Positions 9,653 through 17,250 of a DNA stretch of 64,000 nt are shown piece after piece (positions within the stretch are counted from its first letter, which is position 1; every line of letters begins with the position of its first letter). The notes beneath the pieces are model-generated. The model was given only the letters and a program-made list of their open reading frames with translations, was not told where the DNA came from and did no database searches. Origin of the DNA: Rhodospirillales bacterium (lineage in GTDB: Bacteria > Pseudomonadota > Alphaproteobacteria > ATCC43930 > CGMCC-115725). Made by a program: the position numbers and the translations under genes. The stretch is taken from the NCBI GenBank assembly GCA_028288725.1, contig JAQGIC010000033.1, forward strand, positions 1 through 64,000. The letters are read 5' to 3'.

Positions 9653-11995
9653 ATGAGTGCGCTCACGAATTTTTTCGACACGTCCGCCCTGCTGGCGCAC
9701 GGCACGTGTCTCTTCTGGCGTCCCGACCTGTTATGGCTTCATGTGATCTCCGATCTGGCGATCGGACTGGCCTATTACTCGATCCCGATCGCGCTTGTGG
9801 TCTTCCTGGCCCGGCGCCGCAGCGTCGAGTTCACCGGGCTGATTTGCCTGTTCGCCGCCTTCATCATCGCCTGCGGCACCACGCATTTCTTCAGTGTCTG
9901 GACGCTGTGGCATCCGGATTACGCCGCCGAGGGTCTGGCCAAGGCGATCACCGCCGTGATCTCGGTCGTCACCGCCGTGCTGATCTGGCCGATGCTGCCG
10001 CGCGCGCTGTCGATGCCGTCGCCCAAGGTCCTGGGACAGCTCAACGACGACCTCTCCGTCAAGGTCCGCGAACGCACCCAAGCGGTCGAGGCCCTGAGCG
10101 TGTCGGAGGAGCGCTATCGCACGCTCTACAATCGGTCGCCGGCACCGATGCACTCGCTCGACGCCGGCGGCCGGCTGATCGGTGTCAGCGATTATTGGCT
10201 GACCATGCTGGGCTATCGGCGCGAAGACGTGATCGGCCGGCATCTGAGCGAATTCATGGTACCGGAGTCGGCGGTCCGGTTTCGCGAAAGCCATTGGGAC
10301 GAATTCCTGGTCGTCGGCGAAGTCCGCGACGAGCCCTATCAGTTCGTCCGGCACGACGGCGCGATCGTCGATGTGCTGCTGTCTTCGCGCCTGGAGCGCG
10401 ATACGACCGGCGCATTTCGCGAATCCTTCGCGCTGCTGGCAGACGTCACCGCCCGCAATCGGGCCGAGGCCGCGCTGAAGCGCGAGCGCGAATTCTCCGA
10501 ACTGCTGGTCCGCAGTTCGCCGCAGGGCGTGTTCGCGTTCGACCGCAATCGGCTGTTGACCCTATGGAATTCGGCGCTGGAACGCATGACCGGCGTGACC
10601 GCGGCCGAGATCCTGGGCAAGTCGCCCGAGATGTTCGGCGTCGGCTATGGCGGCAGCGGCGTGATCGAGGCCATGGACCGGGCGATCGACGGCGAATCGA
10701 TCACACTGTCGGACGAACCCTTCGTCTTCGCCAAAACCGGTCGGCGCGGCTTCTTCGAGGCGACCATCGCGCCGGTCTATGGCGAGGCCGGCACGATTCT
10801 GGGCGGCGTCGCCTTCCTGCATGACACGACCGAGCAGCGCGGGCTGGAGGAAGCCCTGCGCCAGGCCCAGAAGATGGAGGCGGTCGGTCAGCTCACGGGC
10901 GGAATCGCCCATGATTTCAACAATGTCCTGACCATCGTTGCCGGCAACCTCGAACTGCTGGAAATGCGGCTCAGCGACCGGCCGGACGTGAAGCGCCTGG
11001 CGACGGCGGCATCGATGGCGACCAGCCGGGCGGAACGGCTGACCCAGCAGCTGCTCGCCTTCTCGCGCAAGCAGCAGCTCCAGCCGGAGCCGCTCGATCT
11101 CAGCAGCGTCGTGAGCGGCATCCGCGATTTGCTGCAGAAGACCGTCGGCGAGCGGATCGAGATCGATTTCCGACCGGCCGAAGGGCTTTGGCAATCGCTG
11201 GTCGACCGAAACCAGGTCGAAAGCCTGCTCTTGAACCTGATTCTGAACGCCCGCGATGCGATGCCCGACGGCGGCCGGATCATCATCGAGACCGAGAATG
11301 CCCAACCCAAGCCCAGCCAGGTGCTGGGGCTGCCGGGCGGGCTCGAGAGCTGCGTGCTGCTGACCGTGACCGACACCGGCACCGGCATGCCGCAGGACGT
11401 GCTGGACCGGGTGTTCGAGCCGTTCTTCACCACCAAGCCGCAGGGACGCGGCACGGGGCTGGGCCTCAGCATGATCTACGGCTTCGTGCGCCAGTCCGGC
11501 GGTCATATCGCGATCGAGAGCACGGAGGGCGTCGGCACGTGCGTGAGGATCTATCTGCCGCGCGCGCTGACCAAGATCCTGCCCAACCATGTGGTGCCGC
11601 AACGCGAGTTCAGCCTGGGCCGCGGCGAGACGGTGCTGGTGGTCGAGGATGACGAGGCGGTCCGGCAATATGCCTGCGGCGTGCTCGACGATCTGGGCTA
11701 CCGGGTGATCGAGGCGGAGACCGGCGACGCCGGGCTGCTCGCGACCGAGACCAATCCGGAAATCGACATCGTGCTGACCGACATCGTCATGCCCGGCCTG
11801 CTGGATGGCGTCATGATGGCCCGCGAGATCCAGAAGCGCCGGCCGGAGCTGAAGATCCTGTTCACCTCGGGCTATTCCGATACCCAACCCCAGGAGGGCG
11901 GGCTCGTCAGCTCGGCCAATTTCCTGAAAAAGCCCTATCGGCCGGTGGACCTGGCCGAAAAGCTGCGGTCGCTCCTGCCGCTGGCACCGGTCTGA
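9653..11995 (+). CDS. Hybrid histidine kinase with ethylene-receptor-like sensor domain
   Basis: A 780-residue membrane sensor. Residues 1-125 form three hydrophobic helices closely like the plant ethylene receptor: ISDLAIGLAYYSIP in helix 1 and FIIACGTTHFFSVWT in helix 2. Asp34, Tyr41, Pro45, Cys74 and His78 match ETR1 Asp25, Tyr32, Pro36, Cys65 and His69 with identical spacing; Cys and His are the Cu(I) ligands. Then come two PAS domains (about 150-270 and 285-395), a HisKA domain with GGIAHDFNN (phospho-acceptor His420), an HATPase with DTGTGMP and GRGTGLGLSM, and a C-terminal receiver (EDDEAV; phospho-acceptor Asp710 in LTDIVMPG). The ATG at 9653 follows GAAGGA. The gene is divergent from gyrA. 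A small gene follows 9 bp downstream. No DNA-binding response regulator is adjacent, so the output path is unknown. Confidence 0.9.
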   Translation: MSALTNFFDTSALLAHGTCLFWRPDLLWLHVISDLAIGLAYYSIPIALVVFLARRRSVEFTGLICLFAAFIIACGTTHFFSVWTLWHPDYAAEGLAKAITAVISVVTAVLIWPMLPRALSMPSPKVLGQLNDDLSVKVRERTQAVEALSVSEERYRTLYNRSPAPMHSLDAGGRLIGVSDYWLTMLGYRREDVIGRHLSEFMVPESAVRFRESHWDEFLVVGEVRDEPYQFVRHDGAIVDVLLSSRLERDTTGAFRESFALLADVTARNRAEAALKREREFSELLVRSSPQGVFAFDRNRLLTLWNSALERMTGVTAAEILGKSPEMFGVGYGGSGVIEAMDRAIDGESITLSDEPFVFAKTGRRGFFEATIAPVYGEAGTILGGVAFLHDTTEQRGLEEALRQAQKMEAVGQLTGGIAHDFNNVLTIVAGNLELLEMRLSDRPDVKRLATAASMATSRAERLTQQLLAFSRKQQLQPEPLDLSSVVSGIRDLLQKTVGERIEIDFRPAEGLWQSLVDRNQVESLLLNLILNARDAMPDGGRIIIETENAQPKPSQVLGLPGGLESCVLLTVTDTGTGMPQDVLDRVFEPFFTTKPQGRGTGLGLSMIYGFVRQSGGHIAIESTEGVGTCVRIYLPRALTKILPNHVVPQREFSLGRGETVLVVEDDEAVRQYACGVLDDLGYRVIEAETGDAGLLATETNPEIDIVLTDIVMPGLLDGVMMAREIQKRRPELKILFTSGYSDTQPQEGGLVSSANFLKKPYRPVDLAEKLRSLLPLAPV

Positions 11996-12004
11996 TCGGC
12001 CGAA

Positions 12005-12370
12005 ATGGCGGAGAAATTCGATCGCGAGCGGCTAATCAAGCTGCTGGGCATGCTGGGCTCCGTCCATGATGGCGAGGTGTTGAATGCGGCCCGCCATATC
12101 GAGGCCATGGTGCGCGCCAGCGGCGGCGATTGGGACAAGCTGCTGAGCCCCGCCCCCGCCGCGGCTGTTCCGAAGCGCTCGCCCGACCGGGCCGACCTGC
12201 GCAAACTGGACGAACTGTTGGCCGCGACCCAGGTTTCCGACATTCTGAAGCTGCGGCTCGCCGCCATGCGCGAGGCGGTCAAAACCGGCCGCCTCGCCGA
12301 TCAGGACCGCCACCTGCTGCGCATGCTCCATCGCAAGGCGGTGATCGAGGGGGCGCTCGTCACGGTGTGA
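12005..12370 (+). CDS. Hypothetical protein, possibly co-transcribed with the ethylene-receptor-like kinase
   Basis: A 121-residue soluble, mostly helical protein. Its N-terminal part ([20 protein letters not shown]) carries a GSxHDGE-type motif that I associate with short uncharacterised alphaproteobacterial proteins. The remainder is a charged helical region ([19 protein letters not shown]). It starts 9 bp after the hybrid kinase stop, so both probably share a transcript, which makes a role as accessory or output partner of the kinase conceivable but unproven. Confidence 0.7.
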
Positions 12371-16188: not shown

Positions 16189-17250
16189 ATGACGGCGAAA
16201 TTTATGCTGACCGCCATGATGCTGGGCTCCGTGGCGCTCGCCAGCGCGGCCCCGGCGCAGGCCCAGGACACGATCGGCATCGCCATGCCGACGAAATCGT
16301 CGGCGCGCTGGATCGACGACGGCAACAACATGGTCAAGCAGTTCGAGGCCAAGGGCTACAAGACCGACCTGCAATATGCCGAAGACGACATTCCCAACCA
16401 GCTGTCCCAGATCGAGAACATGATCACCAAGGGCGACAAGATCCTGGTGATCGCGGCGATCGACGGCACCACGCTGTCGGACGTGCTGCAGCAGGCGGCG
16501 GACAAGAAGATCAAGGTGATCGCCTATGATCGGCTGATCCGCAAATCGCCCAACGTCGATTATTACGCCACCTTCGACAATTTCCAGGTCGGCGTGCTGC
16601 AGGCGGGATCGATCGAGGCGGCGCTGGGCCTGAAGCAGGGCAAGGGCCCGTTCAATATCGAGCTGTTCGGCGGCTCGCCCGACGACAACAACGCCTATTT
16701 CTTCTACGACGGCGCCATGTCGGTGCTGGAGCCCTACATCAAGAGCGGCAAGCTGGTCGTCGGCAGCGGGCAGATGGGCATGGACAAGGTCTCGACCCTG
16801 CGCTGGGACGGGGCCGTCGCCCAGGCGCGCATGGACAATCTGTTGAGCGCCTACTATGGCAACAAGCGGCTCGATGCGGTGCTGTCGCCCTATGACGGTC
16901 TCAGTATCGGCATCCTGTCGTCGCTGAAGGGCGTCGGCTACGGCAGCGGCAATCAGCCGATGCCGGTCGTGACCGGCCAGGACGCCGAGGTCCCCTCGGT
17001 CAAATCGATCCTGGCCAAGGAACAGCACTCGACGATCTACAAGGACACGCGCCAACTGGCCAAGGTCACGGTCGACATGGTCGAGGCGATGGAGAAGCAC
17101 ACGGAAGTGCCGGTCAACGACACCAAGACCTACGACAACGGCATCAAGGTCGTGCCGGCCTATCTCTTGAAGCCGGTCGTGGTCGATGCCAGCAACTGGA
17201 AACAGGTTCTGATCGACGGCGGCTATTACAAGGAAAGCCAGATCCACTAG
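16189..17250 (+). CDS. chvE: ChvE-type periplasmic sugar-binding protein
   Basis: A 353-residue periplasmic-binding protein with a signal peptide (cut at AQA, near residue 25, before [10 protein letters not shown]). The mature start [17 protein letters not shown] and the [17 protein letters not shown] and YDRLI segments match ChvE/MmsB-type (GxySBA) sugar-binding proteins that feed monosaccharides such as galactose, glucose, arabinose or xylose to the GguAB transporter. In Agrobacterium ChvE also signals to VirA; no vir genes are seen here. A strong GGGAGGA ribosome site precedes the ATG. gguA and gguB follow directly, forming one operon. Confidence 0.93.

Follow-up and report, generated by a model that had tools for sequence, protein, structure and literature searches.

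A candidate ethylene receptor of the hybrid histidine kinase type in a Rhodospirillales bacterium, and a natural Cys/Gly difference at its predicted copper ligand

Introduction

Does a bacterial hybrid kinase that resembles the plant ethylene receptor ETR1 at its copper site sense ethylene? The question is raised by a gene in a 64,000-nucleotide stretch of a Rhodospirillales genome (contig JAQGIC010000033.1, positions 1 to 64,000; hereafter the window), in which an earlier note had recognized five copper-site residues ahead of a kinase and receiver output. ETR1 requires seven residues for ethylene binding (PMC11819568), and the documented residue numbers are D25, I35, P36, I62, C65 and H69 (sources including PMC11819568 and PMC6586836); its K91 is predicted to pair with D25 (PMC11819568), and ETR1 is reported to hold about one Cu per monomer (PMC6586836). 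Direct evidence that a given microbial receptor binds ethylene is confined to a few organisms (PMC11819568). Among them, the first 130 residues of AzoEtr1 from Azospirillum brasilense bind 14C-ethylene in yeast, while its D35A and C75A variants failed to restore biofilm formation, with the authors' caveat of a two-plasmid set-up (PMC11819568). Comparable SynEtr1 mutants are non-functional, and the plant equivalents still signal without binding (PMC11819568). Further background came from PMC12643061 and PMC10452086.

Results

Domain order and kinase output of the window protein

The gene occupies 9653..11995 on the forward strand and encodes a hybrid histidine kinase of 780 amino acids with the order ETR1_N-PAS-PAS-HisKA-HATPase-REC. 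Its start is the ATG at 9653, and the protein of the sister genome likewise opens with MSAL. The ethylene-binding domain comprises residues 1-121 (9653..10015, from Pfam PF25487 and AlphaFold2); the PF25487 (ETR1_N) match itself covers residues 26-121 with 129.4 bits against a cut-off of 27 (E 6.1e-38), which excludes a chance match and places the domain in the ethylene-binding family. Pfam places the two PAS domains at residues 153-266 (10109..10450) and 287-396 (10511..10840), all features lying on the forward strand. They are followed by HisKA at 412-475, with the phospho-acceptor H420 (10910-10912), and HATPase_c at 518-637 (together 10886..11563), and then by a receiver domain at 661-771 (11633..11965) with D710 (11780-11782) as predicted phospho-acceptor. 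The extent of the reading frame, the numbering of D34, Y41, P45, C74 and H78, and the PAS-HisKA-REC output of a hybrid kinase were therefore all as the earlier note had described.

HisKA scored 32.5 bits (cut-off 26.9) and HATPase_c 78.9 bits (cut-off 26.4). The catalytic landmarks are H420, the N-box asparagine N532 and the motif GRGTGLGLS at 598, and the H420 and N532 columns are nearly invariant in a 77-member alignment, so that the histidine kinase output is predicted to be intact. The 25 NCBIfam matches listed, out of 126, are kinase or PAS models, led by PRK13557 (432 bits, cut-off 631). The HK-REC module is of a type similar to that of CckA-type hybrid kinases, but identity with CckA was rejected, as the scores for NF046020 and NF046026 (365.4 and 297.1 bits) are far under the cut-off of 1000 each; no named equivalog fits among these 25 matches.

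Copper-site residues and predicted fold

Identical counterparts exist in the window protein for all seven ETR1 ethylene-binding residues. Four lie in the first helix (9752..9787), namely D34 (9752-9754), Y41 (9773-9775), I44 (9782-9784) and P45 (9785-9787), and three in the second (9863..9886), namely I71 (9863-9865), C74 (9872-9874, codon TGC) and H78 (9884-9886). The signalling lysine is also present as K97 (9941..9943), the counterpart of ETR1 K91 and AzoEtr1 K98, an equivalence drawn from the AzoEtr1 spacing. The five residues that the earlier note had called a complete site are thus all there, but I44 and I71 (ETR1 I35 and I62) and K97 were missing from its list. Its claim of ETR1-identical spacing stands for the Asp-Cys and Cys-His pairs, and for the tyrosine it depends on ETR1 Y32, which we take to be the counterpart of Y41 and the seventh binding residue. 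The Asp-Cys distance of 40 and the Cys-His distance of 4 equal those of D25, C65 and H69 in ETR1 (PMC11819568, PMC6586836).

An AlphaFold2 monomer model built with 83 family sequences predicts three helices (24-54, 61-86 and 90-119) with a mean pLDDT of 95.5. Helix 24-54 holds D34, Y41, I44 and P45, helix 61-86 holds I71, C74 and H78, and K97 lies in helix 90-119; the three transmembrane helices expected to carry the site are accordingly present as predicted helices. On ideal-helix geometry, the four site residues of helix 1 span 100 degrees (D34, Y41 and P45 alone, 40) and the three of helix 2 span 60 degrees (C74 and H78 alone, 40), rather than falling on the non-equivalent helix faces that the earlier note had named as contrary evidence. 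Searching the PDB with residues 1-133 (phmmer, E up to 1) gave no matching chain, and Foldseek gave no match at E ≤ 0.001. The VIA-align matches, which reach a Z of 9.4 and comprise BAR domains, complex I subunits and GPCRs, are typical of helical bundles, and nothing was drawn from them. At the 32 conserved columns of the family the window domain deviates twice, and both deviations are common to the sister orthologue.

Comparison with characterized receptors

By comparing the window protein with AzoEtr1, we found that D35, C75, H79 and K98 of AzoEtr1 have the D/C/H/K spacing of the window protein with a shift of one (PMC11819568), and in both proteins the ethylene-binding domain is followed by PAS and histidine kinase domains. 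A protein of A. canadense also has D35 and C75, counted from its Met. However, AzoEtr1 has 525 residues and one PAS domain; it lacks a fused receiver, and the gene immediately downstream encodes a response regulator (PMC11819568). The window protein has 780 residues, two PAS domains and a receiver of its own, and neither of the next two genes encodes a regulator. GeiEtr2 of Geitlerinema shares all seven residues, the PAS/PAC domains and a C-terminal receiver, and SynEtr1 of Synechocystis shares the bacterial ethylene-binding domain (PMC6682694); both differ in being cyanobacterial and in having GAF-type domains (PMC6682694), for which Pfam gives no match in the window protein. Plant ETR1 has the same copper-site residues, the same D-C-H spacing and a kinase with a receiver. 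It differs in carrying GAF where the window protein has PAS, in its ER location, in a His-Lys distance of 22 (69 to 91) against 19 here (78 to 97), and in that plant receptors signal mostly without their kinase.

Distribution of the family

Genomes with a PF25487 match at E ≤ 0.001 numbered 10 of 61 among near relatives, 8 of 39 in the family, 27 of 385 in the class and 29 of 398 in the phylum, where 28 exceeded the cut-off; these genome sets overlap. None of 14 control genomes had a match. The ETR1_N domain is therefore patchy in the bacterium's own family (8/39). Named genomes gave at least 529 encoded relatives among at least 584 pattern matches. The best 80 of these at least 529 relatives by similarity to the window protein come mostly from cyanobacteria and alphaproteobacteria; after three duplicate sequences and one contig-truncated protein were dropped, 76 remained, and 77 proteins including the window protein were scanned. 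HATPase_c was present in 70/77, HisKA in 63/77, PAS_4 in 38/77 and the receiver in 23/77, while C74 and H78 are invariant in 77/77. The hybrid architecture is a minority form, yet not rare. The window protein adds to a recognized receptor family with experimentally proven members; the earlier framing of a few bacterial homologues does not suit a widespread family with its own Pfam entry, although the binding it ascribed to Azospirillum is experimentally shown (PMC11819568).

A tree of 132 domains was built on 122 columns, with the Cys column omitted; the columns are few for this number of rows, and the bootstrap did not settle. The window protein and its sister orthologue form one clade (100/99), the other three proteins of the genus (L002, L003 and L008) form another (100/99), and the Cys state requires two changes. 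By path length the nearest rows outside the genus are two Azospirillum proteins, which do not make a supported clade with it. The end branches measure 0.0049 for the window domain and 0.23 for the sister orthologue.

Cys-less relatives within the genus

Three ETR1_N kinases are carried by the window genome (G000). Besides the window protein, L002 (contig C87) is a short EBD-HisKA-HATPase kinase with all seven residues, and L003 (G000:C39:39774-40058), 63% identical to L002, has Gly (GGT) at the copper Cys and Val at the I71 position. The one other genome of the genus examined (G001) has two, L013 and L008. L008 is syntenic and orthologous to L002 and retains the Cys. L013 (G001:C17; L037:9297-11636) corresponds to the window protein as its orthologue, with 84% identity over 770 residues and the same adjoining gyrA and 121-aa genes, but its copper Cys74 is replaced by Gly (codon GGC versus TGC), so that a single base separates the two states at this locus. 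The copper-site trait is therefore not fixed even within the genus.

In total, 138 distinct domains were read, leaving out three identical duplicates, stretches fetched twice, and L035 and L145, two weak Pfam matches below the reach of the analysis profile. All seven residues occur in 116/138 domains and the Cys in 132/138. The Cys is lacking in six domains: the two Gly domains of this genus, with scores of 195.6 and 187.5 bits, and four others that are weak and eroded, at 22 to 95 bits (L032, L033, L034 and L144). At 130 bits or more, 125 of 127 domains have the Cys, and both exceptions are L013 and L003 from this genus. Of five further matches read later, two strong ones, at 141 and 132 bits, retain the Cys and a weak one of 68 bits carries Ala; the remaining two are fragments that leave the copper site uncovered. 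The Cys position is occupied by Val in L145 (16 bits) and by Gly in L035 (15 bits). Eroded domains have thus often lost the Cys, and well-kept ones rarely have. Among the 127 strong domains, Cys-less proteins make up 2/5 in the genus against 0/122 elsewhere (Fisher p 0.001, in a post hoc test on related rows). No paper on Cys-less bacterial ethylene receptors stood among those listed by a literature search that covered mainly papers available without subscription, and so is weak evidence of novelty.

Altered sites of other kinds were also seen in the same class. L141 and L142 (G612 and G596) represent a second kind, in which the copper His is replaced by Arg, Tyr by Phe, Ile by Thr and Pro by Ala, with the Cys kept. 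In L033 (G253), a long protein whose ETR1_N domain is eroded, Tyr replaces the copper Cys, the same substitution as in plant etr1-1.

Constraint on the Gly domains

Between the window protein and its sister orthologue, dN/dS is 0.136 for the ethylene-binding domain, 0.136 for the kinase core and 0.41 for the linker; for the paralogue domains it is 0.32 (L003/L002), 0.20 (L003/L008) and 0.26 (the Cys pair L002/L008). All these ratios are rough, given the high synonymous divergence, with dS reaching 1.5. HisKA and HATPase_c are above cut-off in both Gly kinases, and both Gly domains look constrained to some degree across their entire divergence. At the conserved columns, the sister domain has changed in 8/32, the most among the 127 strong domains, and L003 in 6/32. 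The Gly74 of the sister together with these eight changed columns indicates that the site can be lost at this locus.

In relative-rate counts, changes on the sister side exceeded those on the window side with 113 of 115 outgroups (medians 12 versus 4), the outgroups being mutually related domains of 150 bits or more. Among the 12 printed outgroups, seven gave p values of 0.003-0.035 and five gave 0.14-0.36. As controls, gyrA (450 residues) leans to the sister as well (12 versus 7), as does the kinase core with three of four outgroups (5 versus 1 or 2; the fourth 3 versus 3), and the PAS region has no sister lean (9 versus 10, one outgroup). Since only seven of the 12 printed outgroups are significant and gyrA and the kinase core lean likewise, we do not claim lineage-specific decay. 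The Gly of the sister could be a recent, still undecayed loss, a base error in one assembly, or a feature of a working Cys-less sensor. As the C75A variant of AzoEtr1 fails to restore function (PMC11819568), the natural Gly variants would be either decaying or sensing without a copper thiolate.

Gene neighborhood and ACC deaminase

The kinase gene sits between gyrA on the reverse strand and a 121-aa open reading frame (12005..12370, forward strand), with homogentisate dioxygenase (hmgA) beyond; neither of these next two genes is a response regulator. The 121-aa frame begins 9 bases past the kinase stop, has no Pfam or NCBIfam match, and comes next after the kinase gene in the sister genome as well. 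However, a 51-52% identical frame lies directly beside gyrA, with no kinase between them, in two genomes of the same family (G003 and G012). We therefore rejected an operon partnership and did not count this frame with the receptor; it seems to belong to the gyrA locus, with no evident partnership with the kinase. About 4.2 kb past the kinase, the window also encodes a ChvE-type multiple monosaccharide binding protein (16189-17250; 560 bits, cut-off 460).

ACC deaminase acts on the plant ethylene precursor. The window genome encodes one (TIGR01274; L168, G000:C9:61757-62758) with 563 bits against a cut-off of 392, and the sister genome has one of 562 bits. The enzyme of the window genome has E293 and L320, 27 residues apart, which we take to resemble the diagnostic pair E295/L322 of the Pseudomonas enzyme. 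In the family, ACC deaminase above cut-off occurs in 3/8 ETR1_N genomes versus 1/31 others (Fisher p 0.02), a weak association that is only suggestive because two of the three genomes belong to one genus. As candidate relay partners, the window genome contains one clear ChpT-like match (92 bits; G000:C8:38057-38386) and nine Hpt matches.

Discussion

According to the above analysis, the window protein is quite probably a membrane ethylene receptor of the bacterial ETR1-like family. The site residues, the AzoEtr1 spacing, the helix model, the low dN/dS of the domain, the ACC deaminase and the relay candidates count for this reading; the Gly74 of the sister, the patchy domain and the lack of a response regulator in the next two genes count against it. 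The ethylene sensing proposed in the earlier note thus gains support at the level of sequence, but has to accommodate an orthologue in a sister species that lacks the copper Cys.

Four elements of the proposed mechanism are inferred: that copper is loaded, that ethylene binds, the direction in which the kinase responds, and the partner to which the phosphate goes. The receptor would presumably be a dimer in the membrane, where three N-terminal helices would hold Cu(I) through C74 and H78, and D34 would position H78 and pair with K97, as modeled for ETR1. Ethylene dissolved in the membrane would bind the copper, and the linker and both PAS domains would relay the signal to the HisKA dimer. Ethylene would probably lower H420 autophosphorylation, by analogy with the inverse agonism described for SynEtr1 and AzoEtr1 (PMC11819568). 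D710 of the fused receiver would take the phosphate from H420 and hand it to a histidine phosphotransfer protein.

The same domain could bind Cu(I) while its real input is copper, redox state, or another pi-acceptor gas or alkene, with the PAS domains perhaps carrying the main signal. The site does predict Cu(I) binding more directly than ethylene specificity, and two PAS domains stand between it and the kinase. Nevertheless, none of the ethylene-pocket residues Y41, I44, P45 and I71 has been lost, and characterized relatives with the seven residues bind ethylene (PMC11819568), so we regard another input as rather unlikely. The Gly domains raise a separate concern, that ethylene perception is disappearing from the genus and that, of the copies at this locus, the window protein is the one in which the site survives. 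Two separate Cys-to-Gly changes in the genus (L013 and L003), the high count of changed conserved columns in the sister, its excess of changes with nearly all outgroups, significant in most of the printed ones, and a PAS region without such a lean all fit a sensor on its way out. It is difficult to reconcile with a window copy that retains all seven residues, with a domain as constrained as the kinase core, and with a second Cys-bearing receptor (L002/L008) at the same place in both genomes; moreover, five printed outgroups give no significant excess, and the leans of gyrA and the kinase core point to the sister too. We consider such a loss improbable.

The Gly domains also admit a reading that sits beside ethylene reception by the window protein. 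Tentatively, the genus may keep matched sets of Cys and Gly receptors, in which D34, H78, K97, the remaining domain and the kinase are constrained, and the Gly receptors are working but ethylene-blind or differently tuned beside ethylene-sensing ones. If this were true, the Gly receptors would be a bacterial counterpart of plant etr1-1-type receptors.

With the window protein as a probable receptor, a hybrid-kinase candidate is added to the few microbial ethylene receptors with direct evidence, and, with an ACC deaminase encoded in the same genome, the bacterium may be able to sense plant ethylene as well as to lower it. The main interest lies in the natural Cys/Gly pair, two orthologues that share a locus and 84% identity but not the copper ligand. 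This pair bears on whether a bacterial ethylene receptor signals without its copper thiolate, to which the C75A variant of AzoEtr1 suggests a negative answer.
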